This document shows positions 35,123 through 54,936 of a stretch of DNA of 64,000 bases, piece by piece. The translations under genes and the position numbers were made by a program. Under the pieces are notes generated by a model. The model made no database searches, was not told the origin of the DNA, and saw only the letters and a program-made list of their open reading frames with translations. Position 1 is the stretch's first letter; each line of letters starts with the position of its first letter. Origin of the DNA: Cellulophaga fucicola (lineage in GTDB: Bacteria > Bacteroidota > Bacteroidia > Flavobacteriales > Flavobacteriaceae); contig NZ_FPIY01000003.1 of assembly GCF_900119145.1 (NCBI RefSeq), forward strand, positions 62,001 to 126,000. Direction: 5' to 3'.

Positions 35123-35785
35123 TTATATTTTTCTTCCGTCTAATAAATTTATAGTTCTAGATCCGTATGTAGCATTTTTTTCTGAATGTGTTACTTGTAC
35201 AATCGTAACTCCGTCTTTATTCAATTCTTTAAAAATCTCCATTATTTCTTCTCCCTGCTTAGAGTTTAAATTCCCTGTTGGTTCATCTGCTAAAATAAGT
35301 TTAGGACTAGAAATTAAAGCTCTTGCTATACCAACTAATTGCTGCTGCCCACCACTAAGCTGACTAGGAAATAGGTTTTGCTTACCAACAATATTAAATT
35401 TATCTAGCATATCTGCTACCAACGCTTTGCGTTCTGACGAGCTATACTTTTTATACAACAAAGGCATTTCTAAGTTTTCATACACCGTAAGCTCATCTAA
35501 TAAATGATATGCCTGAAAAACAAACCCAATATATTGTTTGTACAAATTAGAACGATGCTTTTCTTTTAAGCTATGTACCGGTTCATCTAAAAAATTATAT
35601 TCGCCCTCATTAAAAACATCTAACATACCAATTATGTTAAGTAAGGTAGATTTTCCTGAACCAGACGGCCCCATAATAGAAATAAACTCGCCTTCTTCTA
35701 CTTTTAAATTGATGTCTTTTAGCAAAAAAATCTTTTGTCCGCCAGACTGTACCCACTTGTATATATTGTTTAATTCTAATAACAT
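35123..35785 (-). CDS. MacB/LolD-type ABC ATPase with altered D-loop
   Basis: 220 aa nucleotide-binding subunit: Walker A GPSGSGKS (39-46), Q-loop FVFQAYHLLDELT, signature LSGGQ (143-147), Walker B LILADEPT (163-170), H-loop His200. Two odd points: the signature continues QQLVGIARAL where family members have QQRVAIARAL, and the D-loop reads GNLNSKQG where Asp (GNLDS) is normal. The other ATPase at 51-52 kb has the canonical residues. Last gene of the second permease block, 10 nt after the permease at 35.8-38.2 kb. Probably active but with modified coupling (inference). Confidence 0.9.
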   Translation of the reverse strand: MLLELNNIYKWVQSGGQKIFLLKDINLKVEEGEFISIMGPSGSGKSTLLNIIGMLDVFNEGEYNFLDEPVHSLKEKHRSNLYKQYIGFVFQAYHLLDELTVYENLEMPLLYKKYSSSERKALVADMLDKFNIVGKQNLFPSQLSGGQQQLVGIARALISSPKLILADEPTGNLNSKQGEEIMEIFKELNKDGVTIVQVTHSEKNATYGSRTINLLDGRKI

Positions 35786-35795
35786 AATTTGTATT

Positions 35796-38240
35796 TTATT
35801 CTGTTCGTAAACTTTTTATTGGGTTTTTTGTTGATGAAATATAGGTACGCACACCCATAATTAACATTGCAATTAATAGCATTATAACTCCACTTACTGC
35901 AAAAATCCACCAACTTAATTTTGTTTTATGTGCAAAATCTTGCAGCCAATAATCTATACCAAAATAAGCTATTGGGGCAGCAATAATAAAGGCAATTAAT
36001 ACCAAGCTTAAAAACTCTTTACTTAACAATACATTTAGCTCTAGTAAAGATGCCCCTAATACTTTGCGTATCCCTATCTCTTTGGTTCTGCGCTCTGTAG
36101 TATAAACCACAAGACCTAATAACCCTAAACAACTAATTACAATAGCCAAACCGGTAGCCCAATTAAGTAACAAAGCTGTTTTACGTTCTTGACTGTAAAA
36201 ACGTTTTATAGTATTATCCATAAAAACAAGCTCAAAAGGTTCATCTGTATACACCTCATTCCAGGCACTTTCTAATTTTTTAGTGGTAACTGGTAAATTT
36301 TCCCCGTTTACGTTTGCAAAAGAGATGTGAAACGTTTTAAAACTACTATTTGCTCCGCCTGTACCTACAAAAGCCAACGGTTTAATTGCTGTTTTTAAGG
36401 AACGCTGATTAAAATCTTTCATAACACCAACAATTGGGTTTTGCTCACCATCAGCTTTAATAATTTTACCCAAAGCATCTTCTGGTTTTTTAAACCCTAG
36501 CATACGCATATAGGTTTGGTTTATTACGTATTCTGTAATACTGTCATTGTTTTGTTTTCTACCTGCAAGTAGTTCTATTCCGTAAATATCTAAATAGTTT
36601 TTATCTCCATATAGCAATTGCAATTCTGTATGCACAGGTGCGTTGGTATCATCAAAATAACTAGTATTTGTGGCGCTGGTACTAAAAGATGCTGGCGGAT
36701 ATTCTGCTAAACTAACTTTATTTACTTCTGGTATTGCTTTTATTTTTGTTAACAAGCGTTGTTGTTTTTCTGGCGTCATAGCAAACCAAGGCGCTCTTAC
36801 AGATGCTATGGCTTCGGTTTTAAAACCCATATCTTTTTGCAATAAAAATGATATTTGCTTACCCACTAAAAGCGTAGCTATTATAAAAACCTGTGCTATT
36901 ATAAACTGAAAAACAGTTAGGTATTTGCGTAACGATGTTTTATCATTAGTTGCAATAATTTGATTTTTTAACACCGCTATTGGTTTAAAATGAGAAAGCA
37001 CTACTGCCGGATAAAACCCAGATAAAAACGTAACAGCTAATAGCAATAAAACAACAAATATTATTACCGTTGGCTCTGCAAATAACTCTGAACTTAAACC
37101 TGCTGGTATATAGTCTGAAAAAATATTTAACAACCAAAAAGAAAGTACAATAGACACAATTGCAGCACAGGTGGTTAATAAAAATGTTTCTCCTAAAAAC
37201 TGATAAATTAGTTGTTTTTTAGATCCTCCTAATGTTTTTCTAACACCTATTTCTTTTGCTCTTTGTGTAGCTTGTGCTGTATTTAAGTTGATAAAATTTA
37301 TACTACCTAACAGCAGTAAAAAAAGAGCAACACAACCTAAACTTATTAAAACCGATTTACTTGCTAGCTCAGAGTCAAAATCAAAAGTATAGTAATTGGT
37401 ATCAAAATGCATTTTTTGTAATGGTTGCATATAAAACTTACGTTCATTACCAAACTCTGCTTCATTAGGATCTTTATGTTCTTTTGCCAACTTATTTAGT
37501 GCAAGCTGTACATTTTTGGCATTTGCATTTTTACTTGTTTTTATAAATAATTGTGAGGCCGAGTTTGTTCCGTTCCAATTGCTACTTAAAACTGCGCTTG
37601 TCATATCTGACTGGTGAGCAGTTTTTAATGATATAAACTCTTCAAAAACAATATCTGTACGCTCTGTAAAATTAGCTACAACTCCAGTTACTTGCATATT
37701 TATAGTATCATTGTACACCATATGAGCACCAATTATATCTGTATAGTTGGTATTTGGAAAATATTTTTTAGCCCTTTTTTCTGATAGTACTAACTGATTT
37801 GGACTCTCTAGCGCACTTTCTTTAGAGCCAGCCAACCATCTATATTTAAATACATTAAAAAAACCTTTATCGGCATAAATAACATAATCCGGATTTTTAA
37901 ATGTTTTATCTGTAACTGTATTTTTTATGTGTAACGGATACGTAGTTAAAAAAGGGGCAACAGCAGCCAAACTAGCCGAGTTTTGTTTTAAGGCATCACC
38001 CAAAGGAAATGAAACTCCCGGATTGTAAAAACTCCCTTCTGGTGTTACAAACTCTGTTGTTACTCTGTATATATAATCTTTATCTGGATGAAATTTATCA
38101 AAAGTAAAATCGTAATACACCATTAAACCTATAACAAAAGACACGCTTAGGCCAATAGCCAAACTACTAATCTTAATTAAAGAAAAGAGCTTATTATTCC
38201 ATAGATTTCTAAACGCTATTTTAAAATAATTCTTAATCAT
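35796..38240 (-). CDS. FtsX/MacB-like ABC permease (1 of 6)
   Basis: 814 aa with a duplicated layout: TM1 (~20-42), a MacB_PCD periplasmic domain (~43-285), three TMs (~288-411), TM5 (~434-460), a second periplasmic domain (~461-685), and three TMs to the C-terminus, eight in total. The cytoplasmic coupling-helix motif occurs twice: AKEIGVRKTLGG and TKEIGIRKVLGAS. It ends NPIKSLRTE, a tail shared by five of the six paralogues. This type of double-length permease pairs with a separate LolD/MacB ATPase and pulls substrates from the inner membrane outward by mechanotransmission. Nearest ATPase is 10 nt downstream. Confidence 0.93.
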   Translation of the reverse strand: MIKNYFKIAFRNLWNNKLFSLIKISSLAIGLSVSFVIGLMVYYDFTFDKFHPDKDYIYRVTTEFVTPEGSFYNPGVSFPLGDALKQNSASLAAVAPFLTTYPLHIKNTVTDKTFKNPDYVIYADKGFFNVFKYRWLAGSKESALESPNQLVLSEKRAKKYFPNTNYTDIIGAHMVYNDTINMQVTGVVANFTERTDIVFEEFISLKTAHQSDMTSAVLSSNWNGTNSASQLFIKTSKNANAKNVQLALNKLAKEHKDPNEAEFGNERKFYMQPLQKMHFDTNYYTFDFDSELASKSVLISLGCVALFLLLLGSINFINLNTAQATQRAKEIGVRKTLGGSKKQLIYQFLGETFLLTTCAAIVSIVLSFWLLNIFSDYIPAGLSSELFAEPTVIIFVVLLLLAVTFLSGFYPAVVLSHFKPIAVLKNQIIATNDKTSLRKYLTVFQFIIAQVFIIATLLVGKQISFLLQKDMGFKTEAIASVRAPWFAMTPEKQQRLLTKIKAIPEVNKVSLAEYPPASFSTSATNTSYFDDTNAPVHTELQLLYGDKNYLDIYGIELLAGRKQNNDSITEYVINQTYMRMLGFKKPEDALGKIIKADGEQNPIVGVMKDFNQRSLKTAIKPLAFVGTGGANSSFKTFHISFANVNGENLPVTTKKLESAWNEVYTDEPFELVFMDNTIKRFYSQERKTALLLNWATGLAIVISCLGLLGLVVYTTERRTKEIGIRKVLGASLLELNVLLSKEFLSLVLIAFIIAAPIAYFGIDYWLQDFAHKTKLSWWIFAVSGVIMLLIAMLIMGVRTYISSTKNPIKSLRTE

Positions 38241-38274
38241 AATGTTCTTGTATTAATGATCTTTTCTATAACTT

Positions 38275-40692
38275 TTACTCGTCTTTTAATGCATCTACCG
38301 GATTAGCTAAAGCAGCTTTTAGACTTTGCCAACTTACAGTAAGTAGTGCAATTACTAAAGCGGTACATCCTGCAACAGCAAAAACCCACCAGCTTATTGC
38401 TGTTCTATACGCAAAACCCTCTAACCATTTAAGCATAGTAAACCAGGAAATTGGTACAGCAACTATAAAAGCTAACGTTATCCACTTAACAAAATCCTTA
38501 TTTAACGTAGCTAAAATATTTACAATATTAGCTCCGTTTACTTTACGAACTCCAATTTCCTTTCTTCGTTGTACAACAGTATATGATGTAAGGCCAAATA
38601 AGCCCATAGATGCAATTAAAATTGCTAGAACCGTAAAGATTAAGAATGCACTTCCAAAATTTTTATCTTCGTTATATTGAGACTGAAACTCTTTGTCTAA
38701 AAAAGTGTAATTGAACACATTTTGAGCATATGCATTATCCCAAATATTTTCTACCTTTTTTAAAACAGTACCAAAGCCTGCTACCGACGTAACACTTTTA
38801 TCGAACTTAACCAACAGGTTATTCTTATCTTCATAGTGTCTAATTAGAATTGGTTCTATTGCCGTTTTTAAACCAAAATGATGGTAATCCTTAATTACTC
38901 CAGAAATAACCCAATCTTCTCCCCAAAACTTTACCGTTTCATCAACGGCCTCTGCTAGGTTGGCAATTTGCATATGCTTTGCCATTTTCTCATTAATGAC
39001 TATTTTATTGCTACTCCTTTTTGCTGTTTCTAAAAAAGAACTTCCAGCAACAAACTCCATATCTAAAAGATTAAAATAACCTGGACTTACGTTATAGGTA
39101 TAAAATATTCTATTCTCATCTACTGTACCATTAGGGAACGTAATACCCACTGTAGAAGACAAATTATCATAACCGCCTCCTGGGTATGTCTCCGCAGAAA
39201 CTACATTTTTTACATATGGTAATTTTCGTAATTCAGATTCAAATAATTTATTATCTCTTTTTAGTACAGAGTCTTTACTTTTACTTAAAACCTCCCAATT
39301 AAATGCAACCACGTGATCTAAATTTGCTCCTATAGGCTGATTTTCTAAAAATTTAATTTGTTTAGCTACTACAATAGTGCCTATAAGCAATACAATTGTT
39401 GCAAAAAACTGAGTTATAATAAGACCTTTTCTAATATTAAGTCCGTTAGAAGAAGCTCTTACTTTTCCTTTTAAAGCTACAACAGGAGAATAACCACTTA
39501 ATATAATTGCAGGATATAATCCTGATAAAACCGTACCTAAAAAAATAAAACCGAGGTAGGGAAGCAAGCCTAATACTACAGCTGAATTTACAATTAAATC
39601 TTCACCTGTATAACTATTAAAAAAGGGTAATGTAAATACAACAACTATTGTAGCTATTACAATTGCAATACAATTAATAAGAACAGATTCTAATAAAGAT
39701 TGAAAAATAAGTTGTGGTCTTTGGGCTCCAGAAACTTTTCGTATTCCTATTTCCTTAGCACGTTCTAAAGATTTTGTAGTTGCAAGATTAACATAATTAA
39801 GCCACGATAATATTAAAATTATAAATGCAATAGCCAATAAAAACTTTACTCTACTTTCGCTACCATTAGCTTCTGCTTCATACGGCTTATTAGAATTTAA
39901 ATGGATGCTTTCTAAAGACTCTATATTATGACGTTCATCTAAATCGTCTTCAAAATTAGTTTTAATTATTTTTTGTTGTAAAGCATCTATATCAGTATTT
40001 TTATTAACCTTTATATATGTAAAAAAATTATTCTGACTCCAATTAGGTTCATATTGTCTAGGAATAGCCTTCCACGTTTTTAAGGTCTCAAAAGAAACTA
40101 GAAAATTGTTTTTTATGTGTGTGTTTTTAGGAATATCCTTTAATATCCCTGTAACCGTAACTGTTGTTTCACCTTTCCAAAAGATAGAAAGGGTTTTACC
40201 TATAGGACTCTCTTTACCAAATATTTTTTCAGCTAGATTTTCTTGTAATACTATACTATTAGGAGCTGCTAGCGCATCTTTTACATCTCCTTTTACCAAC
40301 GGATAATCAAAAACACTAAAGAATGAAGGATCTACAATTGCTCCTTTATTGCCCTCAAAAACTTCATTTTCATTAATAAAAGTAGTCTTTTGAAGATGAA
40401 AAAAACGAACATATTCCTTTATTTCAGGGAATTCTTTTTTTAAGGTTGGTCCACTTAAATTGTAACTCTGTGCATCTCCAGGAGAAAATGTGTTTCCTTC
40501 CAAATAATCCATATACACACGGTATACGTTTTCTGAACCATTAAACTTGTCGTAATTACGCTCATTAGCAACGTACATCATAATTAATACAAAAGATGCT
40601 ATCCCTACAGATAAACCCATTATATTAATAAAAGAGTATAGCTTATTCTTTAACAAGAATCTTGAAGCAATTTTTAAATATAAATTGTACAT
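38275..40692 (-). CDS. FtsX/MacB-like ABC permease (2 of 6)
   Basis: 805 aa, same eight-TM duplicated layout. Coupling motifs AKEIGIRKVSGAQ and RKEIGVRKVNGAN differ from the L-G-A form of the others, and the C-terminus ends ANPVDALKDE instead of KSLR[TA]E. This makes it the most divergent member of the array. 34 nt separate its stop from the next permease start and 14 nt its start from the previous stop. Confidence 0.92.
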   Translation of the reverse strand: MYNLYLKIASRFLLKNKLYSFINIMGLSVGIASFVLIMMYVANERNYDKFNGSENVYRVYMDYLEGNTFSPGDAQSYNLSGPTLKKEFPEIKEYVRFFHLQKTTFINENEVFEGNKGAIVDPSFFSVFDYPLVKGDVKDALAAPNSIVLQENLAEKIFGKESPIGKTLSIFWKGETTVTVTGILKDIPKNTHIKNNFLVSFETLKTWKAIPRQYEPNWSQNNFFTYIKVNKNTDIDALQQKIIKTNFEDDLDERHNIESLESIHLNSNKPYEAEANGSESRVKFLLAIAFIILILSWLNYVNLATTKSLERAKEIGIRKVSGAQRPQLIFQSLLESVLINCIAIVIATIVVVFTLPFFNSYTGEDLIVNSAVVLGLLPYLGFIFLGTVLSGLYPAIILSGYSPVVALKGKVRASSNGLNIRKGLIITQFFATIVLLIGTIVVAKQIKFLENQPIGANLDHVVAFNWEVLSKSKDSVLKRDNKLFESELRKLPYVKNVVSAETYPGGGYDNLSSTVGITFPNGTVDENRIFYTYNVSPGYFNLLDMEFVAGSSFLETAKRSSNKIVINEKMAKHMQIANLAEAVDETVKFWGEDWVISGVIKDYHHFGLKTAIEPILIRHYEDKNNLLVKFDKSVTSVAGFGTVLKKVENIWDNAYAQNVFNYTFLDKEFQSQYNEDKNFGSAFLIFTVLAILIASMGLFGLTSYTVVQRRKEIGVRKVNGANIVNILATLNKDFVKWITLAFIVAVPISWFTMLKWLEGFAYRTAISWWVFAVAGCTALVIALLTVSWQSLKAALANPVDALKDE

Positions 40693-40706
40693 AGATTATT
40701 TTATAA

Positions 40707-43094
40707 TTACTCTGTTCGCAAACTTTTTATTGGATTTGCTGTTGCTGCTTTAATAGCTTGAAAACTTACTGTTATTAGCGCTATAATAACAGCACACATA
40801 CCTGCTATAAAGAATACCAACCAACCAATATCTATTCTATACGCAAACTCTTGCAACCATTTTTGCATAAGTATATACGCAACCGGAAAAGCAACTAACA
40901 GTGATACTATTACTAGTTTTAAAAAGTCTGCAGAAAGCATTTGTGTAATTCCTAAGACACTTGCCCCAAGTACTTTTCTAACTCCAATTTCTTTTTTACG
41001 TTGTTCTGCTGTAAAAGCTGCCAGTCCAAATAAGCCTAAACAAGCAACAAAGATGGCTAGTAAACAGAATAAGAGTCCAACTTTAGCTATTTTACGATCT
41101 TGAGCATATAATTGTTCCATATTCTTATCTAAAAATGTATAATCAAAACTAGAGTCTGGAGATACTTTAGCATAAGCAGCCTCTAATTGCTGCATTGTAT
41201 TAGTTACAGAAACACTATTAAAACGCACCAATAAATAAGATTTAGGCTCGTAGTTGTTATTATGAAACGCATAAGCCCCAACAGGTTTGTGTAAAGACTC
41301 AAAATTAAAATCGTCTACAACACCAATTATTGTTGCTCCGTCTCCTAATTGCATATCTACTTTTTTACCAATTGCTTCCTCTGGTGTATATCCTAAATAA
41401 TCTATTGCTTTTTTGTTTAAAACAACATCTACAAGAGTATCTCCTTCTTGCTTTAAATTTGGCAGCTTTTTACCCGCCAAAAGCTTTAATTGCAATACAT
41501 CTAAAACACTTGCATCAGATACGTTTGTTTGTATGCCTTTACCATTTTCATCTTGATCGTTTTTATGGATTGTTCTTCCACTAACTTCCATCCCAGGGAA
41601 ACCTTGCGCTAAACCAACCTCTAAAACAGAACTTACTCTTTTTACCTCTTCTGCCAAGGCGTGCTTATTATTATATGTTTTTATGGCTGCAGTAGATACT
41701 GCAACAACATTTTGCGGAGTATAGCCTAAGTCTTTATTTTTCATAAATTCCAACTGCTGGTATACTACCAACACTCCCACAATTAAAACTACTGAAGCAG
41801 TAAACTGTAGTACTACTAATGCTTTTCTAATTACTGAATTGCCAACCATTCTGTTTGCTGGTTTTAATATAGAACTTGGCGAAAAACCAGATAAGTAAAA
41901 TGCAGGGTAAGACCCCGCAACCAAAGTAGTTATAAGCCAAACCAAAAACATCCCTAAAATAAAGTCTGGTTTTAAAAGAAAACTAAACTCTAAATTACCA
42001 TCTGTTAATGTATTAAAAACCGGAATTATAGCTACAGATAATAACACACCAATACATAATGCAATTAAAGTTAATAGCCCTGTTTCTGCATAAAACCTGG
42101 CAATTAAATTTTTAGACGATGCACCTAACGTTTTATTTATGCCCACATCTTTTGCTCTTTTTTGAGAACGAGCGGTCATCAAATTCATATAATTAACACA
42201 CGCTATAAGTAAAATAAGTAATGCTAAAAACGATAAATTTTTAATTTCAGAAATATTTCCAGGTCTAGAAGTATAGCTATTTGTATAGTCTTTAGAGTAT
42301 AAATGCACCTGATCTAAAGGCTGTAAAGAAAGTGTATACCACTGTCCTTCTTTATCTATATTTTTATCTATAATTTGTTGTATTTGATTTTTTAAAGACG
42401 ATTTAGATGTATTTTCTTTTAGTTGTACATAAGTTTCGAAACTAGAATTACCCCAACTTGGTTCTTTATAAAAATATGTAGTATTAAATGATGCTATTAA
42501 ATTAGCATCTATGGTACTATTTTTTGCATAATCTACATAAACACCCGTAACCTCTAACTCTGTTTTATCATCAACCTTTATAGTTTTACCCATTGGGTCT
42601 TGCTCTCCAAAATATTTTTTAGCTGCACTAACAGATAAAACAACTGTATTAGGCCTACTTAAAGCAGACGCCGCATTACCCTTAACAAACTCGGTTTCAA
42701 AAATTGAAAACAATTCTTGATCGCACCAAAACAATCTTTTTTCAAGAAAATTACTGTTGTTCGCTTTTATAAAAGCAGTTTCTCCAAAACTATGCTGCAA
42801 CATTCTTGCCGCGTGTTTTACTGTTGGCAATTCGGATTTTAAAGCTGGCGCAACTGCAGCTGGTGCAGTAGCCATAATTTCTTTATCAAAAGCATCGCCA
42901 GTTGTATTAACCAAAACCCTGTATATGTCTTTGTTGTTTTTATACTGTGTATCGTAACTTTTCTCAAAAGTGATAAAAGAGAACAACAGAATAGCTATTG
43001 TTAAACCAATAGATAGCCCTAAAATGTTTAATACAGAAAACATTTTGTCCATTTTTAAGCTTCGCCAAGCTATTTTTATATGATTTTTAAACAT
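40707..43094 (-). CDS. FtsX/MacB-like ABC permease (3 of 6)
   Basis: 795 aa. TM1 is in FSVLNILGLSIGLTIAILLF; the first coupling motif is degenerate (AKDVGINKTLGAS, Asn for Arg), the second normal (KKEIGVRKVLGAS); it ends NPIKSLRTE. Follows the GIN-domain gene by 22 nt. The loss of Arg in the first motif may alter how it docks on its ATPase (inference). Confidence 0.92.
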   Translation of the reverse strand: MFKNHIKIAWRSLKMDKMFSVLNILGLSIGLTIAILLFSFITFEKSYDTQYKNNKDIYRVLVNTTGDAFDKEIMATAPAAVAPALKSELPTVKHAARMLQHSFGETAFIKANNSNFLEKRLFWCDQELFSIFETEFVKGNAASALSRPNTVVLSVSAAKKYFGEQDPMGKTIKVDDKTELEVTGVYVDYAKNSTIDANLIASFNTTYFYKEPSWGNSSFETYVQLKENTSKSSLKNQIQQIIDKNIDKEGQWYTLSLQPLDQVHLYSKDYTNSYTSRPGNISEIKNLSFLALLILLIACVNYMNLMTARSQKRAKDVGINKTLGASSKNLIARFYAETGLLTLIALCIGVLLSVAIIPVFNTLTDGNLEFSFLLKPDFILGMFLVWLITTLVAGSYPAFYLSGFSPSSILKPANRMVGNSVIRKALVVLQFTASVVLIVGVLVVYQQLEFMKNKDLGYTPQNVVAVSTAAIKTYNNKHALAEEVKRVSSVLEVGLAQGFPGMEVSGRTIHKNDQDENGKGIQTNVSDASVLDVLQLKLLAGKKLPNLKQEGDTLVDVVLNKKAIDYLGYTPEEAIGKKVDMQLGDGATIIGVVDDFNFESLHKPVGAYAFHNNNYEPKSYLLVRFNSVSVTNTMQQLEAAYAKVSPDSSFDYTFLDKNMEQLYAQDRKIAKVGLLFCLLAIFVACLGLFGLAAFTAEQRKKEIGVRKVLGASVLGITQMLSADFLKLVIVSLLVAFPVAYILMQKWLQEFAYRIDIGWLVFFIAGMCAVIIALITVSFQAIKAATANPIKSLRTE

Positions 43095-43116
43095 AATTTT
43101 TCAGTTTTACATAAGA

Positions 43117-43869: not shown

Positions 43870-43895
43870 ATGTTCTATTTTTTTGATTGATGAAT

Positions 43896-46325: not shown

Positions 46326-46372
46326 AATTTTTATTCTTTACTGTTCGTTTTTTGATTGATGCTTACTAATAC

Positions 46373-46387
46373 CCTAATTCTGTGCCA
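46373..46387 (-). promoter_or_regulatory. Possible sigma-54 promoter for the second permease block
   Basis: On the - strand, TGGCACAGAATTAGG: an exact -24 TGGCAC, and TAGG at the -12 position where TTGC is expected, with correct 12-bp spacing. The missing C at -12 weakens the call. Predicted start near 46361, 36 nt before the ATG. Confidence 0.4.
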
Positions 46388-46450
46388 AAATCTCAAACAC
46401 ATAACAAACAGCTACTTACATATTATTTTTGATTAAAAAATTGATGCAAC

Positions 46451-46467
46451 TGTAAAAAAAATTTACA
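46451..46467 (-). promoter_or_regulatory. Candidate activator site (TGTAAA-N5-TTTACA)
   Basis: Perfect inverted repeat TGTAAA-N5-TTTACA centred about 98 bp upstream of the predicted sigma-54 start. The half-site TGTAAA is shared with the dyad between tolC and the response regulator gene. Confidence 0.45.
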
Positions 46468-46500
46468 CAGACTGTCCATATTTTGTACGTTAAAAAAGAA

Positions 46501-48933
46501 CTATTCTGTTCGTAGGCTTTTAACTGGGTTTGCTATTGCAGACTTTATAGACTGAAAACCAACAGTTACAATTGTTATTAGCATTGCAAAACCACCTGCT
46601 AATAAAAATACCCACCATTTAATTTCAATTTTATAGGTAAAATCTTGTAACCAATTTTGCATAAGATAGTATGCTATAGGAGATGCAATGACAAATGCAA
46701 CCAATACTAGCTTTAAAAAATCTTTGGTTAATAACTGTACAACAGATTTTACACTGGCACCTAAAACTTTACGTATCCCAATTTCTTTCTTCTTTTGCTC
46801 TGCAACATAAGACACCAAACCAAATAACCCTAAACAACTAATTAAAATGGCCAAAATGGTAAATGCTATAGATATTTTAGATAATTTTTGTTCTTCTGCG
46901 TATAACTTTTCGGTTTCTTTATCTACAAAAACATACTCAAATGGCGCATACGGATTCACTTTTTTCCAGTTGGCCTCTAAACCGCTCAATACACTTTTTA
47001 AATTGTTGGTTTCTAACTTAGCAACTATCCAATCTGGTTCTGTTTCACTATAAATAAGCATAGGTGAAATTGCTTGTTTAAAATCTTCAAAATGAAAATT
47101 CTCTGTAACACCCACAATTTCATAATTCTCTGTTTCACTGCCATAACTGCTAACAATTGTAGCTGCTAAGGCGTTTTCTATATCAATATTAAAAGCCTTT
47201 AGGGTTGCCATATTTACCAATACGCCTGTAGAGTCTGTTGCTCTAAGCTTACGACCTTTAATAATTTTGGTTCCAATGGTTTCTAAATAATTAGGAGTAA
47301 TACCATTGTAAAAAACAGAGGTTAGGTTATTATCATCTTGACTAGGTAAACGCATTGCCAAATCGCCCATAATAGATCTGGATGGGTAATTATTACTCCC
47401 TGTAACAGAGCTAACACCAGATACTCCTTGTAATTGTGATTGTATAGCACTAAAATTTTGTTGTAATTCTTGTGTTCCTAAACGTATTGCTAACAAATTA
47501 TCTTTGTTAAAGCCTAAATCTTTTTGCTTAGCAAATTTTAGTTGTTGTGATACTATTATAACACTTACTGTTAAAACTATTGATACTACAAACTGAAAAA
47601 CAACCAAACCACGCCTTAATAAACCATTGCTAGATTGTAGTTCTGTTGCCCCTTTTAGCACTTTAGACGGTTTAAAAGAAGACAACACCAATGCCGGATA
47701 AATACCTGCTATTAAGCCTGTTAAAAAACCCATAGACCCCAACAACAATAAAATTTTAAGGTTTAATATATGTTCTGGCTCTATGTTACCGCCTGTTAAT
47801 ACATTAGCAACCGGAAGCAATAATAAAACTATAGGTATGCTAATAAATACTGCTAAAAATGCAATTAAAATAGACTCACTTAAAAACTGCTGTACCAAAG
47901 AGCTTTTTTGCGCTCCAATGGCTTTTCTTACCCCTATTTCTTTTGCTCTTTTACTAGCTCTGGCTGTACTTAAATTAATAAAGTTTACACAGGCAACTAG
48001 TTGTACTATAAAGGCTAAAAACAATAGTGCATACAAGTATTCTATATTAGATACTTCTTCTATTTGCTTGTCTATACCTTTAGAGTGCAAATGAATATCT
48101 GTAACAGATTGTAATAGTAATTTTTTATCAAAACCCATATCAGCCAAATCAATTCCTCCACGATCTAGTAAAAACTTAGGTATCTTTTTTTCTAATCTGG
48201 TTTTGCTGTCATTGGCTCCTAGTTTTATATAACTGTACGCAAAGTTTTGCGTTGCAAAATTGCTAATATTGTTAGTGTATTCACCAATGCCAGGCGAGTT
48301 CATACACAGTATATAATTAGGATTTAAATGCGTTGGGTTGGTTGGTTCATTAAAAACTCCGGTAATGGTTGCGTTAAATTGGTCTTCTCCTGCACCAATA
48401 ACTAATGTTTTGTTTACAACTTGTTTGGTGTCTTTAAATAATTTTGAAGCTAATTTTTTTGATAAAACAATGCTATTTGGTTTTTCTAAGGCTGTAGCCA
48501 AATTACCTTCTGCGGCTGTATAATTAAAAAATTTAAAAAAGGTAGAATCGGCCACATATCCTTTACTCTCATAATAACTTTGGTTGTTTTTGGGGTTACG
48601 AATTAGAGCTTCTTCTCCAGACCCAAAATAAACAACCCTACAAGCATCTACCACTTCTGGTAAATCTTCTTTTAAAGCAAAAGCTATTGGAGGGCTACTT
48701 GTAGCTACATCTGCATTTATACTGTTGTTACTTTTTGATTTTATTTTAGTACGTATTCTGTATACAGAAGCAACATCTTTATGGTGCGTATCATACCCAA
48801 ATTGCGCATTAACATAAGATATTATAATTAAGCAACATATTGTACCTACAGTAAGGCTAAGAATATTTATACCTGTCTGCAACGGATTTTTTTTAAGACT
48901 ACGCCACGCTATTTTTAGTTGATTTTTAAACAT
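46501..48933 (-). CDS. FtsX/MacB-like ABC permease (5 of 6)
   Basis: 810 aa. TM1 is in INILSLTVGTICCLIIISY, with two Cys not found in the other paralogues. Coupling motifs AKEIGVRKAIGAQ and KKEIGIRKVLGAS; tail NPVKSLRTE. Last gene of the first block (TolC, adaptor, ATPase, two permeases); 30 nt after the preceding permease. Leader carries ATCAATCAAAA 12 nt before the ATG. Confidence 0.93.
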   Translation of the reverse strand: MFKNQLKIAWRSLKKNPLQTGINILSLTVGTICCLIIISYVNAQFGYDTHHKDVASVYRIRTKIKSKSNNSINADVATSSPPIAFALKEDLPEVVDACRVVYFGSGEEALIRNPKNNQSYYESKGYVADSTFFKFFNYTAAEGNLATALEKPNSIVLSKKLASKLFKDTKQVVNKTLVIGAGEDQFNATITGVFNEPTNPTHLNPNYILCMNSPGIGEYTNNISNFATQNFAYSYIKLGANDSKTRLEKKIPKFLLDRGGIDLADMGFDKKLLLQSVTDIHLHSKGIDKQIEEVSNIEYLYALLFLAFIVQLVACVNFINLSTARASKRAKEIGVRKAIGAQKSSLVQQFLSESILIAFLAVFISIPIVLLLLPVANVLTGGNIEPEHILNLKILLLLGSMGFLTGLIAGIYPALVLSSFKPSKVLKGATELQSSNGLLRRGLVVFQFVVSIVLTVSVIIVSQQLKFAKQKDLGFNKDNLLAIRLGTQELQQNFSAIQSQLQGVSGVSSVTGSNNYPSRSIMGDLAMRLPSQDDNNLTSVFYNGITPNYLETIGTKIIKGRKLRATDSTGVLVNMATLKAFNIDIENALAATIVSSYGSETENYEIVGVTENFHFEDFKQAISPMLIYSETEPDWIVAKLETNNLKSVLSGLEANWKKVNPYAPFEYVFVDKETEKLYAEEQKLSKISIAFTILAILISCLGLFGLVSYVAEQKKKEIGIRKVLGASVKSVVQLLTKDFLKLVLVAFVIASPIAYYLMQNWLQDFTYKIEIKWWVFLLAGGFAMLITIVTVGFQSIKSAIANPVKSLRTE

Positions 48934-48963
48934 AACTGCTTGTTTTTTTGATTGATGAATGAA

Positions 48964-51321
48964 TTACTCTGTTCGCAAGCTTTTTACAGGGTTAGTTATT
49001 GCTGCTTTTATAGCTTGAAAACTTACCGTTAACAAAGCAATTGCAACTGCTCCTATGCCTGCCAAAGCAAACATCCACCATTGCATATTTATACGGTAAG
49101 CGTAGTCTTCTAACCAGCTAGACATTGCCCACCAAGCTACAGGTATTGCTATAACAATAGATAAAACCACAAGTCTTATAAAATCTTTAGATAATAGATT
49201 TACAATATTAACCACACTTGCACCTAACACTTTACGTACACCTATTTCCTTACTTCTTTGTTCTGATGTATATGCTGCCAAACCAAATAAGCCCAAGCAG
49301 GAAATAAATATAGCCAGTAAAGCAAATATTTGTGATAGTCTACCAACCAACATTTCACTTTTAAATTTTTGGTTAAAAGCATCGTCTACAAACTCGTACT
49401 CAAACGGAAAAGCAGAGTTGTGTTTCTGCATAATACTTGCCATACCTGCAAGTGCATTTTTTACATCTACATCTTGCTTAATACGTACGTACATATATTG
49501 CGCTTCGCTAGGCGCGTTAATAAACATAACCGGATCGCTTTTACCATACATATCTCCGTATAAAAAATCTTTAACAACACCCACCACAGTAATTTTATCT
49601 TCTCCAAAATAAATATCCTTGCCTACTGCAGATTCTGTATCTATAAGCTTAGCAAACGATTCTGTAATTATTACACTAGTACTATCTAACTCTTGGTTTT
49701 GTTTAAAATTTCTGCCATCTACTAAATCCATACCAGCAGTACTTAAAAAGTCCGGATTTATATATCTAAAAGAAATAAGCATTTCACTATTAGCATCTGC
49801 CATTCCAGACCAAGTTGCTCCAGATCCATTATTACCAATAGACAGTGTGTTATAGCTATTTAACCCTGTATTTTCTATCATACCAGTAGCTAGCATTTCT
49901 TGCTTTATTGCCGTGAAATTTTTAACCATATCTCCTCTAACATTCATTGTTACAAGATTGGTTTTATTGTATCCTAACTGTCTGTTTTTTACGTGCTGTA
50001 CTTGCTTGTACACCACAATAGTGCTTATTATTAATATTATTGATGCTGCAAACTGAGTTACCACAAGCCCTTTTCTAATAAACACAGAACCTTTTTGATT
50101 GCTACTTATGCCTTTTAAAACAGTTACTGGCAAAAATGAAGACAAATAAAACGCCGGATAACAACCTGCAAAAACACCACAAAAAATGGTAATACCAAAC
50201 AGAGCTAACCAGTGTAAAGGATTGCTTATTCCCATTATTAATTCTTTTTCTATAACAGTATTAAACTGTGGCAACAATAAAAACACTAATAAAATACTTA
50301 CCAGTGTAGCTATACTTGCAATAACTAAAGATTCTGTTATAAATTGAAAAATTAAGCGTTTACGACCCGCACCTAAAACTTTACGCACTCCAACTTCATT
50401 GGCTCTTTTTGCACTACGAGCTGTAGACAAGTTCATAAAATTAATACAAGCTATTATTAAGATAATCCAAGCTATTACGGAGAATAGATTTACGTACATA
50501 ATTCTGCCTCCTACTTGTTTTCCGCCTTCAAAATTATCTCTTAAACGCCAGTCTAACATACTATGCATAAAGGCATACGTATCATTACCTTCCATTTTAG
50601 TTTGTAAAAACTTTTTTATAGTAGTATTTACAACTGCTGCATCTACTTTATGGTCTAATTGTATATACGTGTCTACAGAGTTATTTCCCCAAGCATTTAA
50701 ATAATCTTTGTCTTTAGCGTATGCATCAAAAGACGCTAGCCAGTCAAAATTTACAGTAACATTTTTAGGAAAATCTACAACAACACCTGTAACGGTGTAA
50801 CTGTATTTATTGTCTAGTTCTATAGTTCTACCAACCGCATTATTGCCAGCTCCAAATAATTGTGATGCTGTTTTTTGAGTAAGTATTATGGCGTCTGTAT
50901 CTTCCAATGCTGTGTTTGCATCTCCTTGTATAAATTCTAGACTAAAAATGTCTAAAAAATCTGAATCTACATAACTCCCTTTTTTATATAAAGACTTGTC
51001 TCCTTGTTTAAAAAGTCGTTCTTCATCTCTATACCTAGTAGCATTTATAATCCCAGGAACTTCCTTTTTTAAAGCTTCTGCTAAAGGTCCGGGAGTAGAA
51101 GTAAATGTGCGCCACTCACCATTATATTTTTGGTTGGTTGGCAAATAATACACCTGCTCTTTATTAGAAAAAACTGCGTCGTAGTTTACCTCATCTTCTA
51201 CCCATAAAAAAATAAGACTGGCACAGGTAATACCCATTGCTAACCCAAAAATATTGAGAAAACTATAGCCTTTATTTTTTAACAAGCTCCTAAACGCAAT
51301 TTTAAAATAATTCTTGAACAT
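48964..51321 (-). CDS. FtsX/MacB-like ABC permease (6 of 6)
   Basis: 785 aa, the shortest of the six. Coupling motifs ANEVGVRKVLGAG and SKEIGVRKVLGAS; tail NPVKSLRTE. It lies 52 nt downstream of the canonical ATPase, so it is the most likely primary partner of that ATPase and of the adaptor. Its leader has two copies of ATCAATCAAAA. Confidence 0.93.
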   Translation of the reverse strand: MFKNYFKIAFRSLLKNKGYSFLNIFGLAMGITCASLIFLWVEDEVNYDAVFSNKEQVYYLPTNQKYNGEWRTFTSTPGPLAEALKKEVPGIINATRYRDEERLFKQGDKSLYKKGSYVDSDFLDIFSLEFIQGDANTALEDTDAIILTQKTASQLFGAGNNAVGRTIELDNKYSYTVTGVVVDFPKNVTVNFDWLASFDAYAKDKDYLNAWGNNSVDTYIQLDHKVDAAVVNTTIKKFLQTKMEGNDTYAFMHSMLDWRLRDNFEGGKQVGGRIMYVNLFSVIAWIILIIACINFMNLSTARSAKRANEVGVRKVLGAGRKRLIFQFITESLVIASIATLVSILLVFLLLPQFNTVIEKELIMGISNPLHWLALFGITIFCGVFAGCYPAFYLSSFLPVTVLKGISSNQKGSVFIRKGLVVTQFAASIILIISTIVVYKQVQHVKNRQLGYNKTNLVTMNVRGDMVKNFTAIKQEMLATGMIENTGLNSYNTLSIGNNGSGATWSGMADANSEMLISFRYINPDFLSTAGMDLVDGRNFKQNQELDSTSVIITESFAKLIDTESAVGKDIYFGEDKITVVGVVKDFLYGDMYGKSDPVMFINAPSEAQYMYVRIKQDVDVKNALAGMASIMQKHNSAFPFEYEFVDDAFNQKFKSEMLVGRLSQIFALLAIFISCLGLFGLAAYTSEQRSKEIGVRKVLGASVVNIVNLLSKDFIRLVVLSIVIAIPVAWWAMSSWLEDYAYRINMQWWMFALAGIGAVAIALLTVSFQAIKAAITNPVKSLRTE

Positions 51322-51373
51322 GGTGATTGGCTATTTTGATTGATTGATGATTTTGATTGATGATGAACTCTGC

Positions 51374-52072
51374 TTATTTTACTACTGCCTCAAAAGGTTT
51401 ATTATGACTTTCGGTTACTATTTGACCGTCAAAAAGATTTACAACCCTGTGTGCGTAATGCGAGTCTCTATCTGAGTGTGTTACCATTACTATAGTTGTA
51501 CCTTCTTGGTTTAGTTCTGTTAGCAAATTCATTACTTCTATTCCGTTTTTAGAATCTAAGTTACCTGTTGGCTCATCTGCTAGTATTAATTTTGGATTTG
51601 TAACTACGGCTCTTGCTATGGCAACACGCTGTTGTTGACCACCAGATAATTGCTGTGGAAAATGCTTTTCTCTGTGGGCAATTTTCATACGTTCTAGAAC
51701 TGCTCTTACTTTTTGTTTGCGTTCTGCCTTATCCATTTTTAAATAGATTAATGGTAATTCTACGTTTTCAAAAACAGTAAGCTCGTCTATTAAATTAAAA
51801 CTCTGAAATACGAACCCTAAATTACCTTTACGCAAACCTGTACGTTGGTTTTCTTTTAAACCACCTACTTCATGACCTGCAAATTGGTAACTGCCGTCTG
51901 ATGGATTGTCTAACATACCTATTATATTTAGTAAGGTAGATTTACCACAACCAGATGGCCCCATTATGGCTACAAACTCGCCCTGGCCTACATTTAAGTT
52001 TACACTGTTTAGTGCCAAAGTTTCTACTTCTTCGGTTCTAAAGCTTTTTTTAAGGTCTTTTATTTGTATCAT
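51374..52072 (-). CDS. MacB/LolD-type ABC ATPase
   Basis: 232 aa. Walker A GPSGCGKS (38-45), Q-loop FVFQSFNLIDELT, canonical signature LSGGQQQRVAIARA, Walker B LILADEPT with a normal D-loop GNLDSK, and H-loop in VTHSDRD. This is the fully canonical partner for the permeases, unlike the ATPase at 35 kb. It lies between the adaptor gene (152-nt gap containing a repeat element) and permease 6. Confidence 0.94.
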   Translation of the reverse strand: MIQIKDLKKSFRTEEVETLALNSVNLNVGQGEFVAIMGPSGCGKSTLLNIIGMLDNPSDGSYQFAGHEVGGLKENQRTGLRKGNLGFVFQSFNLIDELTVFENVELPLIYLKMDKAERKQKVRAVLERMKIAHREKHFPQQLSGGQQQRVAIARAVVTNPKLILADEPTGNLDSKNGIEVMNLLTELNQEGTTIVMVTHSDRDSHYAHRVVNLFDGQIVTESHNKPFEAVVK

Positions 52073-52145
52073 TTTTGATTGTTTTTTTATTCTTCCTTTA
52101 CCCTCTAAAGGAGGGAGTTAGTTACGAATTAATTATTTATTTTAT

Positions 52146-52227
52146 GTGTTAGGGATTGTAGTGTAAATCCTTTTTTTTCTTCTTAAAAAAGATTGCAACG
52201 TAAAGCCCGCCCAAAGGGAACACCCTA
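52146..52227 (-). repeat. Dispersed ~82-bp intergenic repeat, copy 1
   Basis: Begins GTGTTAGGGATTGTAGTG and ends GGAACACCCTA on the + strand; about 80% identical by eye to 61481-61563. Inside it a GATTGyAryG unit occurs twice, and TAGGG/CCCTA can pair at the ends. It starts at the last codon of the adaptor gene (the TAG stop is the CTA end of the repeat). It resembles the REP-like GGGCGGGCTTT elements seen at gene 3' ends in Flavobacteriaceae. Confidence 0.75.
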
Positions 52228-53475
52228 TTTTAAAACTATTTTTTCTGCTTCTCCAAAACTATCGTAATTAGAGGTTATTACATTTTCACCTGCCTGCAAG
52301 CCTTCTAAAACTTCGTAATATTTAGAGTTTTGCTTGCCTATTCTTATGTTGCGTTTTAAAGCTTCGCCACCATCTGGATTTACTACAAAAATCCACTGTC
52401 CGCCTGTACTTTGAAAAAAGCTACCTTTAGATACCAAAAGCGCATCTGAAGAGGCTCCTAATTGTAGTTTTACATTAAAGCTTTGTCCTGCTCTTATGTT
52501 TTCTGGTTTTTCTGATGTAAATACTAGATCTACTTTAAATTTACCACCGCGAACTTCTGGGTATACTTTGCGTAAACGCAGATTATACGTTTTTCCATTG
52601 CGCTCAAAAGAGGCATTTAAATCTCTTTTTACACGGTCTATGTAATGCTCATCTATCTCGGCTTCTATTTTATAATCTGTTAGTACATTTATTTGCCCTA
52701 TACGCTGACCTTGGTTTATACTTTGACCAATTTCTGCATCTAAAAATCCTAATTGGCCATCTGCTGGTGCACGCACATTTAAGTGATCTAGACGCTCGTA
52801 AACCATAGATAATGTTTTTTGCATTCTGTTTAAATCTGTGTCTAAACCAGCAAGTGATGTATTACGCATTTTATCGTCTTGCTCTGTCTGTATTTTTACA
52901 ATATCATGTTGTTTTAAAGATAGCTCGTAGTTCTCTTTTGCGGTTAAAAATGCTTCTTTAGAGATTAACCCGTCATTGTAAAGCTCTTGGTTTTGTTGGT
53001 AATTACGCTTTAAACGGGTTAACTCATAAGATGTGGTTGCTAAAGATTTACGGCCTTCTACTTGTCTAGAGTCAAAGGTTAGTTTGGTAGATCTTAAATC
53101 GTTTTGTTTTAGCGCAAGGTTACTCTCACTTGCTAAAATTTGCTCGTATAAATTACTATTTTCTAGCCTTAGAATAATGTCGCCTTTTTTTACCATTGCA
53201 CCTTCTTCTATCAATTTTTCGGTAACTCTACCGCCTTCATAAGCATCCATATAAATGGTTGCTATTGGTGCAGCACTACCATTAATTGTAATGTAATCGT
53301 CGAACTTACCTTGAGTTACTTCTGCTATAGATAATTTGTCTTTCTCTGTTCTAAAAGTAGCTACAGAATTACTCCAAATTATTTTGTATGCTGCAAAAGC
53401 AACTACTAGTCCAATAGCAATGTATGCATAGTGTTTTGGACGTAATCCTTTTCTTTTTTCTAATTGAATATCCAT
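52225..53475 (-). CDS. HlyD/MacA-type periplasmic adaptor
   Basis: 416 aa membrane-fusion protein. One N-terminal TM helix (~17-34), a first beta-barrel/lipoyl half (TINGSAAPIATIYMDAYEGG, KKGDIILRLEN), a long coiled-coil hairpin (~100-215), lipoyl second half (VRAPADGQLGFLDAEIGQSI), and beta-barrel/MP domains at the C-terminus. It should link an inner-membrane MacB-type transporter to the TolC protein encoded 14 nt upstream. It is the only adaptor for six permeases in the cluster. Confidence 0.92.
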   Translation of the reverse strand: MDIQLEKRKGLRPKHYAYIAIGLVVAFAAYKIIWSNSVATFRTEKDKLSIAEVTQGKFDDYITINGSAAPIATIYMDAYEGGRVTEKLIEEGAMVKKGDIILRLENSNLYEQILASESNLALKQNDLRSTKLTFDSRQVEGRKSLATTSYELTRLKRNYQQNQELYNDGLISKEAFLTAKENYELSLKQHDIVKIQTEQDDKMRNTSLAGLDTDLNRMQKTLSMVYERLDHLNVRAPADGQLGFLDAEIGQSINQGQRIGQINVLTDYKIEAEIDEHYIDRVKRDLNASFERNGKTYNLRLRKVYPEVRGGKFKVDLVFTSEKPENIRAGQSFNVKLQLGASSDALLVSKGSFFQSTGGQWIFVVNPDGGEALKRNIRIGKQNSKYYEVLEGLQAGENVITSNYDSFGEAEKIVLK

Positions 53476-53489
53476 CTATATTGTAATTG

Positions 53490-54836
53490 TTAGTTTATGG
53501 TAAATACTGGTAATCCTTGATAAAAAGCCAATGTACTTTGGTTTACTTTTAATCTTATTTGCACTTGTAAATTCTCGTTTTTTGCGGTAGTGTACAATAC
53601 TTTTGCTTGGTACAACTCTACGGCAGAAATCATCTCTTTCTCGTATTTCTTCTGTGCTATAGAAAAGCTAAGCTCTTGTGCTTTTAGTTTTTGTATGCTT
53701 TGTAAATTCTCGATCTCTAAAGCACTTTTTTCTTGTACCAATTGTTGTATTAGTTTGTACAACTCTTGCTCTTGAATTTTTAAATTATTCTCTGCTTGTT
53801 GCAATGCTATTTTTTGTTGCTTTACTTGCGATCTTCCAGACCATTTATTACTAATTGGTATGTTCACAGATACACCAATAGATCTAGATGCATTATCTCT
53901 TATTTGGTTTTTAAATGATATTATTTCTCTACTAATATCGTCTATATTTGTCTCGTAATATCCTGTGCCGTAACCTGCAAAAAGTGATATTGAAGGGTAC
54001 AAACCTCCTCTAGCAATGGCTACTTCTTTCTCTGCTGCCTTTACACGCAATTGTCCAGATTTTATGCTTGGCAAAAACGCTTGTGCTTTTGTATAAACAG
54101 AATCTGTTTTTGTTGTTTCAACTAGATTCTCTTGTATATTTAAAACATCTGTTTTTAAGTCTATTGTAGACACGCCTTCTAAATTCATTTCTTGTATTAA
54201 ATTTAGTTTTGCTGCTGCTAATTGGTTTTCGGCTTGTGTAACTGCTAACTTATCTGTTAATAAAACAGATTCTGCCTCGTACATATCTGCCTGCGCTATT
54301 AACCCTAATTCTAATTGTTTTTTTACAAACGCATAGTTGGTGTCTGATATACTTACTTGTTCTTCTGTAATTTCTAACAAACCTTGGTAAAATCTTATAT
54401 CGTAAAAAGCAGACATTACTCTAAATGCTAATAAATACTTCTGTTGTTGCGCATCTTCTTGTACAGCTTTATAAATATACTTTGTTGCTTTAATTGTATT
54501 TACTCTTTGGAAACCTCTAAAAATATCTATAGAAGAATTTAACCCGTAATTATTAGAAAAGAAATCTGTATCTATTATATTGTTATTATTTGGATCTGTA
54601 GATCTACCATATCTAATAACATAATCTGCAGAACCATTAATGCTAGGCAACAAATTACGTATAGCTTGTTTGTGTGTTTCTTTACTAGATGCAACAGTAT
54701 AAGCTTGGTTGTTTAATTCTAAGTTATGAGAAACTGCATAGTTAATACACTCGTCTAAAGACCAACTTTCTTGTGCTTTAATTGGCAAACTAACCAGCAG
54801 TAGCAAAAATAGAATATGTGTTATTTTTAAGTTCAT
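53490..54836 (-). CDS. TolC-family outer membrane efflux protein
   Basis: 448 aa from the ATG at 54836 (MNLKITHILFLLLLVSLP); an in-frame TTG at 54854 precedes it. Signal peptide to about residue 21 (IKAQ), then two repeated outer-membrane-efflux-protein halves of long helices (SWSLDECINYAVSHN at the start, RSIGVSVNIPISNKWSG in the second half). It forms the trimeric exit duct. First gene of the first export block, with a sigma-54-like promoter directly upstream. Confidence 0.93.
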   Translation of the reverse strand: MNLKITHILFLLLLVSLPIKAQESWSLDECINYAVSHNLELNNQAYTVASSKETHKQAIRNLLPSINGSADYVIRYGRSTDPNNNNIIDTDFFSNNYGLNSSIDIFRGFQRVNTIKATKYIYKAVQEDAQQQKYLLAFRVMSAFYDIRFYQGLLEITEEQVSISDTNYAFVKKQLELGLIAQADMYEAESVLLTDKLAVTQAENQLAAAKLNLIQEMNLEGVSTIDLKTDVLNIQENLVETTKTDSVYTKAQAFLPSIKSGQLRVKAAEKEVAIARGGLYPSISLFAGYGTGYYETNIDDISREIISFKNQIRDNASRSIGVSVNIPISNKWSGRSQVKQQKIALQQAENNLKIQEQELYKLIQQLVQEKSALEIENLQSIQKLKAQELSFSIAQKKYEKEMISAVELYQAKVLYTTAKNENLQVQIRLKVNQSTLAFYQGLPVFTIN

Positions 54837-54876: not shown

Positions 54877-54936
54877 AAAACATAAATTACTGAAAAACAA
54901 TATTTTAACTACAAAAAACTAAATATACGAATATGT

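Follow-up and report, generated by a model that had tools for sequence, protein, structure and literature searches.

The minus strand of the 64,000-nucleotide stretch of Cellulophaga fucicola DNA analyzed here (the window) carries, at 35123-54836, eleven genes in the same direction, which encode a TolC, a periplasmic adaptor, an ATPase (NBD1), six permeases (P1 to P6), a GIN-domain protein and a second ATPase (NBD2). Together they probably constitute a hub-and-cassette form of tripartite type VII ATP-binding cassette (ABC) system, in which single-chain, pseudo-dimeric permeases share a hub of ATPase, adaptor and outer membrane duct both in cis and in trans, and the window locus is the Cellulophaga-type member of a system that is widespread in the Bacteroidota. 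The broader proposal, put forward with less confidence and favored on balance, is that one hub powers dozens of interchangeable single-chain permeases genome-wide, in cis and in trans, under one sigma-54 regulon. An earlier interpretation of the same DNA from its letters alone (the sequence-only reading) had named a shared hub as one of two explanations for the array, and this is now well supported by the variable permease content around a constant hub, the exact co-occurrence of adaptor and permeases, the dispersed permeases and a common promoter signature.

The genes were taken from the open reading frame (ORF) listing and are given below with the evidence for each, where TM denotes a transmembrane segment and the named hub loci are 80 of the 423 adaptor relatives reported by a scan of public genomes. 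Gene maps cover 18 genomes including that of the window, these 80 loci and 53 arrays, and permease counts were taken from the mapped arrays.

53490..54836, minus strand: outer membrane duct of the TolC family, encoded at the head of the operon (Pfam OEP; ATG at 54836; likewise positioned in most of the 80 named hub loci)
52225..53475, minus strand: HlyD/MacA-like periplasmic adaptor (Pfam HlyD_3; NCBIfam RND_mfp above its cut-off, DarC below)
51374..52072, minus strand: ATPase NBD1, heading the permease array (Pfam ABC_tran; LSGGQQQ-R and GNLD motifs)
48964..51321, minus strand: permease P1, 785 aa, eight TM, two periplasmic domains (Pfam, hydropathy, AlphaFold2)
46501..48933, minus strand: permease P2, 810 aa (Pfam, hydropathy; missing in relative G003)
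43896..46325, minus strand: permease P3, 809 aa (Pfam; the P3 group is the most widespread, in 37/43 arrays)
43117..43869, minus strand: GIN-domain (DUF2807) protein with a signal-peptide-like start (Pfam DUF2807, scanned without the first codon)
40707..43094, minus strand: permease P4, 795 aa (Pfam, hydropathy)
38275..40692, minus strand: permease P5, 805 aa (Pfam; missing in G015, G002 and G011)
35796..38240, minus strand: permease P6, 814 aa (Pfam, hydropathy)
35123..35785, minus strand: ATPase NBD2, bookend at the tail of the array (Pfam ABC_tran; LSGGQQQ-[LI]-VG, non-Asp D-loop residue)

The ORF listing opens the TolC gene at a TTG at 54854 and the GIN gene at an upstream TTG, and the coordinates above start from the ATG codons at 54836 and 43869. 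The inventory of the sequence-only reading, namely six permeases of about 800 residues, two ATPases, one adaptor, one TolC and one GIN protein in a single direction, is borne out by the ORF listing and Pfam, and an inner-membrane engine, an adaptor and a TolC, the parts of a tripartite efflux system, are encoded together at this locus. No double-length permease was found elsewhere in the window genome at E <= 1e-30, all six matches lying in the array.

All six permeases score above the curated Pfam cut-offs for both MacB_PCD and FtsX, and each consists of two FtsX and two MacB-type periplasmic stretches, with one MacB_PCD stretch passing in P2. By hydropathy, every one of them has eight TM segments, arranged 1+3+1+3, and both coupling-helix motifs are present, by eye, in 6/6, as the sequence-only reading had noted. 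The latter was also right that five of the six share a KSLR[TA]E tail, P5 ending in DALKDE; the tail was rejected as a diagnostic of this array, KSLRxE being the C-terminus of 225/366 array permeases and of 9/24 scattered ones. The AlphaFold2 model, which covers P1 alone among the six (mean pLDDT 87.1, pTM 0.81), shows in each half a large periplasmic domain that separates TM1 from TM2, together with coupling helices, as in the type VII ABC (mechanotransmitter) fold. Its best full-length Foldseek match is YbbP (TM-score 0.47, root-mean-square deviation 11.9), followed by MacB halves, LolE and BceAB, with LolCDE and BceABS also among the matches. In the excerpted account cited here, YbbP is a pseudo-symmetric chain that acts with two YbbA (PMC12646458), which provides a precedent for one chain per engine.

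The six permeases are well separated in sequence, P2 to P6 being 28-36% identical to P1, and the divergence is concentrated outside the membrane. Mean identity among the six is 25.6% and 22.2% in the two periplasmic domains versus 40.2% and 50.2% in the TM/coupling blocks, and 57 diverse permeases follow the same pattern (27% vs 46% and 54%). The distinct periplasmic domains that the sequence-only reading had hoped for are therefore present (22-26% vs 40-50% identity), and low periplasmic together with high TM/coupling conservation is what a shared ATPase serving different ligands would predict.

What surrounds the permeases is far more constant than the permeases themselves. In most of the 80 named loci the genes for a kinase and a regulator are divergent from a run of TolC, adaptor, NBD1 and permease genes. 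In more distant relatives TolC is missing at the head of the array, and some of these relatives have a TolC-like gene after it. NBD2 lies at or near the tail in 44/53 mapped arrays, a few of which have another gene before it and one of which (G089) has a permease beyond it; the nine without NBD2 are G085, G027, G018, G036, G048, G057, G021, G031 and G052, those of G057 and G031 running into contig ends. The number of permeases varies widely. The five closest Cellulophaga arrays, window included, hold five or six each, G003 lacking P2, G015 lacking P5, and G002 and G011 lacking P5 and having another permease, and arrays closed by NBD2 hold 2 permeases in G071, 18 in G070, 27 in G033 and about 41 in Ulvibacterium marinum, where 42 permease pieces, two of them counted as one gene, extend over ~105 kb. 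Among more distant hubs the number falls to one (G021). In G094 and G081 many ORFs are broken, and the adaptor of G094 is in two pieces, so that the counts for these are of pieces. Arrays with many broken ORFs were seen in Maribacter litopenaei (L168 and L169) and Maribacter halichondriae (L149-L151), where assembly error or decay is possible.

The adaptor itself occurs in 18/60 genomes, window genome included, and 7 of the 18 belong to its genus. Its identity is 96% in Cellulophaga omnivescoria W5C and 85% in Cellulophaga sp. F20128, and public genomes of Maribacter, Arenibacter, Muricauda, Flagellimonas, Zobellia, Aquimarina, Lutibacter, Ulvibacterium and other genera also encode it. No empty site was found by means of the flanking markers ABCx and GDH in 11 hub-less genomes of the same genus, the two markers being far apart or on different contigs in 7 and GDH unmatched in 4; three of these 11 neighborhoods were mapped. 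Among the five close arrays, third-codon identity is uneven from gene to gene (between G000 and G002, for example, 89% for P2, 63% for P4 and 67% for GDH), which suggests exchange by recombination.

The permeases of one array are mostly ancient paralogues, to judge from their relationships. Among 366 full-length permeases of 43 arrays, a set that omits G031 and G052, where array-mates were nearest relatives in the set described next, the nearest relative is an array-mate for 5. The 43 arrays are the 53 mapped ones without G085, G094, G034, G036, G032, G048, G057, G021, G031 and G052, with G061, G068, G083 and G090 in their shorter, unextended form and full-length permeases alone counted. An earlier set that included more distant arrays (269 permeases, 262 with an array-mate, after near-identical loci L061, L062 and L073 were dropped) gave 7/262, all in G031, G052 and L140, with a median identity of 35% to the nearest array-mate and 78% to the nearest permease elsewhere. 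P1 to P6 have their nearest relatives in other genomes, at 86-97% identity. The sequence-only reading had argued that these are not decaying copies, and would have given up the idea of a conserved system had the permeases grouped as recent tandem duplicates with disrupted copies in relatives, or had neighboring genomes contained only one; this outcome did not arise for the window array. At 50% identity and single linkage, the 366 permeases fall into 55 groups, and two members of one group occur together in 12/43 arrays. Besides the P3 group, the groups of the other five window permeases are each found in 13 to 18 arrays. Outside the five close arrays, the median Jaccard index of shared permease content is 0.2 (893 pairs). 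The conserved gene order that the sequence-only reading had proposed as a check was found in part: when pairs made up of two of the five closest Cellulophaga arrays are set aside, shared permease groups stand in the same relative order in 1472 comparisons and in the opposite order in 563. Since little content is shared and its order partly agrees, the permeases are drawn from an old common pool with a partial memory of order.

Hub and permeases also occur together at the level of genomes. Adaptor and permeases are found in the same 18/60 genomes and neither is found in the other 42, no double-length permease being detected at E <= 1e-30 in the 11 hub-less genomes of the window's genus. Class-wide, with at most six candidates scored per genome so that permease counts are lower bounds, 22 of 148 genomes have both, 124 have neither and 2 have permeases only, the latter (G138 and G247) being assemblies of 210 and 290 contigs. 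Not all permeases lie beside a hub. In G033, G070, G072 and G090, BLAST recognizes no hub-like ATPase, adaptor or TolC in the 15-20 kb mapped at each of 13 loci, which together contain 24 permeases. In G103 and G115 the sole adaptor and the sole NBD1-like ATPase (E <= 1e-70) stand with regulator and kinase and with no permease in the mapped stretch, which in G115 leaves out 17 kb of contig C9 (336000-353000) between the hub and the next permeases; the permeases of both genomes are on other contigs, those of G115 also ~24 kb downstream of the hub. G235 has two permeases after its hub and others elsewhere. A scattered permease of G103 (L279, contig C71) was seen beside another regulator and kinase, with no ATPase or adaptor recognized.

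Hub and dispersed permeases appear to be linked by their promoters, for which the relevant features of the window, none of them mentioned in the sequence-only reading, are as follows.

55063..56433, plus strand: NtrC-type response regulator with receiver, sigma-54 activation domain and Fis helix-turn-helix (HTH) (Pfam; divergent from tolC or the adaptor gene in most hub loci)
56423..57772, plus strand: histidine kinase with two TM, almost no periplasmic loop, PAS and HATPase domains (Pfam; TM 11-29 and 33-51 by hydropathy)
54940..54956, minus strand: palindrome TGTATATATATTTTACA in the tolC promoter, a putative activator site (motif scan)
54861..54876, minus strand: sigma-54-like -24/-12 site TGGCATAACAATAGCT of the tolC promoter, starting 80 bp after the palindrome start
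46451..46467, minus strand: palindrome TGTAAATTTTTTTTACA, putative activator site upstream of P3 (motif scan)
46372..46387, minus strand: sigma-54-like -24/-12 site that precedes P3, its start 80 bp after that of the palindrome

The hallmarks of a sigma-54 (NtrC-type) regulon are thus predicted together, namely a -24/-12-like promoter, a putative activator site upstream of it and a regulator that contains a sigma-54 activation domain. In the 72 hub intergenic regions found in the 80 named loci, a sigma-54-like site scoring >=16 is present in 68 and a palindrome of the form TGTAAAANNNTTTTACA scoring >=12 of 14 in 69, compared with 4.8% and 1.5% of shuffled regions. The composite of both elements at a spacing of 78-82 bp occurs in 65/72 versus 5/7200 shuffles, the spacing being 80 bp in 51. 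Scored alone, the sigma-54-like site hardly distinguishes array permeases (9.6%) from other genes (6.5%), and there is little signal until the two elements are combined. Among genes with an upstream gap of >=100 bp, the composite precedes 11/17 scattered permeases versus 0/72 unrelated genes of the scattered loci (Fisher p 3e-10), and 16/64 array permeases versus 0/200 unrelated genes of other loci (Fisher p 3e-11), the 200 comprising 161 in array loci, 37 in Flavobacterium/Robiginitalea loci and 2 in one G048 locus. Array loci have further composites before 10/12 tolC, 1/3 GIN and 1/8 NBD2 genes and before one broken permease piece, and in Flavobacterium and Robiginitalea they precede 2/2 Flavobacterium tolC genes and 0/2 permeases. 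The composite thresholds and the 78-82 bp window were set after the single-element results had been seen on many of the same sequences; a strict genome scan is more independent of that tuning, yet its pattern came from the same single-element results. It found the composite in 15/16 hub genomes and 1/14 hub-less ones, while a mirrored control pattern gave 3 matches in all 30 genomes. Of its 42 matches, 15 precede tolC, 19 a permease (four of these, in G033, G070 and twice in G090, outside the loci mapped earlier), 5 a GIN/DUF4097-like gene and 2 other genes (a glucosaminidase and a 69-codon HTH-like frame), and the one in a hub-less genome has no gene found behind it. The five DUF2807/DUF4097-type proteins were recognized by Pfam or BLAST in three cases and by likeness to these in two. 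The window genome has exactly two composite sites, both in the window, before tolC and, inside the array, before P3.

A further motif, loosely ATCANNNNNTTA on the printed strand, was noticed by eye in the intervals that separate each palindrome from its sigma-54 site (54877-54939 and 46388-46450); similar motifs occur in many promoters of the genome scan and are perhaps a second protein site. At L274 (G033, contig C2, 628000-637300), a gene for a DUF2807 protein under the composite is followed by one whose product, by eye, resembles PadR regulators, and by another permease gene.

The two ATPases differ in a consistent manner. NBD1 has the canonical LSGGQQQ-R and GNLD motifs in 92/92 distinct sequences, and NBD2 has the LSGGQQQ-[LI]-VG signature flank and a non-Asp D-loop residue in 41/41, with Walker A intact, including in three sequences that the motif pattern missed. 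These D-loop and signature-flank changes in NBD2 (35123-35785) hint at an asymmetric ATPase pair, and a heterodimer of NBD1 and NBD2 with one weakened site is a possible, speculative arrangement, limited by the nine mapped arrays that lack NBD2. Intramembrane-sensing, BceS-like kinases have two TM segments and a very short outer loop, and by hydropathy this is the build of the hub kinases, with two TM in 70/71 and a median gap of 4 residues. The usual sigma-54 contact loop is GAFTGA. In hub regulators, including that of the window at 55063-56433, it reads GAFTDA or GSFTDA in 87/89, 2 being unmatched. The window contains a second pair of kinase and sigma-54-type regulator at 30015-32438 (ORF listing), ~3 kb from the array, of which the regulator, RR2 at 31110-32438, has the GAFTGA loop.

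Other genes travel with the arrays. DUF2807 and DUF4097 proteins recur in them and, elsewhere, under the same promoter, and products with signal-peptide-like starts (by eye; ten were scanned with Pfam) include GIN/DUF2807, alpha/beta hydrolase, esterase, beta-lactamase-fold and DUF2911 proteins, with 3-keto-disaccharide-hydrolase-like and M61 peptidase proteins in the same ten. In the excerpt cited, YbbAP acts with the hydrolase TesA (PMC12646458), and by analogy some permeases may hand compounds that they extract to a periplasmic hydrolase.

The following mechanism would account for these features. The constant hub would be one TolC, one adaptor, one ATPase NBD1 and, in most arrays, the variant NBD2. 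Because the two TM halves, the two coupling helices and two periplasmic domains are all present in a single permease, one chain and an ATPase dimer would suffice as an inner-membrane engine. The permeases would alternate on the hub or compete for it, physically sharing NBD1 and the adaptor, while their diverged periplasmic domains would each recognize a different periplasmic or membrane-embedded ligand, amphiphilic toxins or lipids being our guess. ATP-driven mechanotransmission would then drive the ligand through the common adaptor and TolC, presumably in the direction of efflux. The kinase, probably sensing within the membrane, would activate the NtrC-type regulator, which would bind the palindrome 80 bp upstream of the sigma-54-like promoters and so switch on the hub and the permeases inside the array and elsewhere.

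Several observations weigh against this mechanism or reduce the force of its evidence. TM cores are often the better-conserved part of permeases, so that the domain pattern is weak evidence, and related genomes are not independent observations, so that the co-occurrence counts for less than its numbers would if they were. There is not just one NBD1-like ATPase everywhere: G033 and G090 each have a second copy (86% and 85%), the one in G033 near permeases and both with no adaptor in their 1.5-kb flanks, and ABC ATPases are so numerous that the permeases could be served by a different one from the same genome. In both Flavobacterium panici and F. cupreum (L123 and L124), no permease lies within 10 kb downstream of the hub closest to that of the window, all five detected permeases adjoin an ATPase gene of another locus and two of the five also have an adaptor, regulator and kinase of their own, so that these permeases look self-sufficient. 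Lastly, the composite is missing before 6/17 scattered and 48/64 array permeases that have a gap.

The strongest rival to a shared efflux hub is that the permeases are sensors or mechanotransmitters of the FtsEX or BceAB kind, which detect envelope-active compounds and signal through the shared ATPase to the loop-less kinase or drive periplasmic enzymes. The two closely spaced TM segments of the hub kinases (median gap of 4 residues), BceAB and BceABS among the P1 fold matches, the hydrolase genes with signal-peptide-like starts in arrays (alpha/beta hydrolase, esterase, beta-lactamase-fold, M61 peptidase) and the partnership of YbbAP with TesA in the excerpt cited (PMC12646458) all fit this idea, yet the dedicated adaptor, and the TolC that comes first in most of the 80 named hub operons, point to a trans-envelope conduit, and the permeases have MacB-type periplasmic domains; we consider it unlikely. 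A Lol-like system, in which lipoproteins or GIN/DUF4097-type proteins are moved to the cell surface with each permease having its own cargo, would explain the DUF2807 and DUF4097 proteins in arrays and under the same promoter as well as LolCDE among the P1 fold matches. It is less probable still, as permeases far outnumber such genes, with at most one BLAST-recognized GIN gene per mapped array, though Pfam found further DUF2807 proteins among those left unnamed by BLAST.

The other explanation in the sequence-only reading, that the whole permease set forms one hetero-oligomeric machine, is very improbable. The array permeases do belong to one operon and keep part of their relative order (1472 same vs 563 reversed), but complete arrays vary from 2 to about 41 permeases, and hubs overall from one, with no fixed set, single permeases are gained or lost among close Cellulophaga, and each chain already has eight TM segments and both coupling helices, just as the pseudo-symmetric YbbP acts as one chain with two YbbA in the excerpt cited (PMC12646458). 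Obligatory hetero-oligomers were rejected on these grounds of variable number and content and self-complete chains. That the array consists of recent tandem duplicates with no functional meaning can be given hardly any credence: the 7 permeases of G031, G052 and L140 whose nearest relative is an array-mate, the 12/43 arrays with two members of one 50% group and the many broken ORFs of G094 and G081, perhaps from sequencing error or decay, would agree with it, but array-mates are nearest for only 7/262 and 5/366, ORFs are intact in most arrays and promoters are conserved. For the window array, recent tandem duplication is refuted by the identities of P2 to P6 to P1 (28-36%) and of P1 to P6 to their counterparts in other genomes (86-97%).

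If one hub does power many permeases, the consequences reach beyond this locus. Descriptions of tripartite ABC pumps usually give each a single permease type, and an engine that is kept while its heads are swapped, with two to about 41 permeases, would gain transport breadth by a different route. No account of such arrays or of the hub was found in the titles and abstract openings returned by searches of the open-licence literature. In the excerpt cited, a Dyadobacter paper counts 28 and 33 ADOP-named genes "of unknown function" (PMC11573002). The "orphan" duplicated permeases of Bacteroidota, and perhaps of Acidobacteria, would not be orphans at all and would instead be heads for a common engine. 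Such function-unknown permeases gain a testable partner and regulator, the promoter signature finds further members, and the permease repertoire would become a readable trait of marine Bacteroidota.

The proposed system resembles several known ones in part. MacB is a fused ATPase-permease with four TM segments that forms a homodimer. The window system is like MacAB-TolC in its adaptor, TolC, MacB-type periplasmic domains and fold, and differs in its separate ATPases, its 8-TM pseudo-dimeric permeases, many beside one hub, and in scores far below the PRK10535 cut-off. It shares with the darobactin exporter DarBCD a permease (DarB), an adaptor (DarC) and a separate ATPase (DarD), DarC being the best NCBIfam match of the adaptor and DarD that of both ATPases, but DarBCD has one permease per system and identity with it was rejected by scores far below the curated cut-offs of 700 for DarB (permeases 74-174), 450 for DarC (adaptor 201) and 375 for DarD (ATPases 243 and 296). 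ADOP (TIGR03434), the best NCBIfam match of all six permeases, also comprises large paralogous expansions of double-length permeases, which are reportedly without ATPase genes. Here two ATPases bracket the array and a hub is present, and identity with ADOP was rejected at 253-353 bits versus a curated cut-off of 622.3. Group II ECF transporters combine one energizing module with several substrate-specific partners, and ECF and MsmK-type systems are importers of unrelated fold. The MsmK shared-ATPase importers follow the same logic of one energizing module for several partners, according to the excerpt cited (PMC4519317). The window system differs from both in that adaptor and outer membrane duct would be shared too. 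The YbbAP-TesA system of E. coli has a double-length, pseudo-symmetric permease and a separate ATPase dimer like those proposed here, and differs in its 10 TM segments, its work with TesA and its single permease, with no adaptor or TolC mentioned in the excerpt cited (PMC12646458). The window system is not a strict MacB and works like a tripartite pump with shared-ATPase logic.

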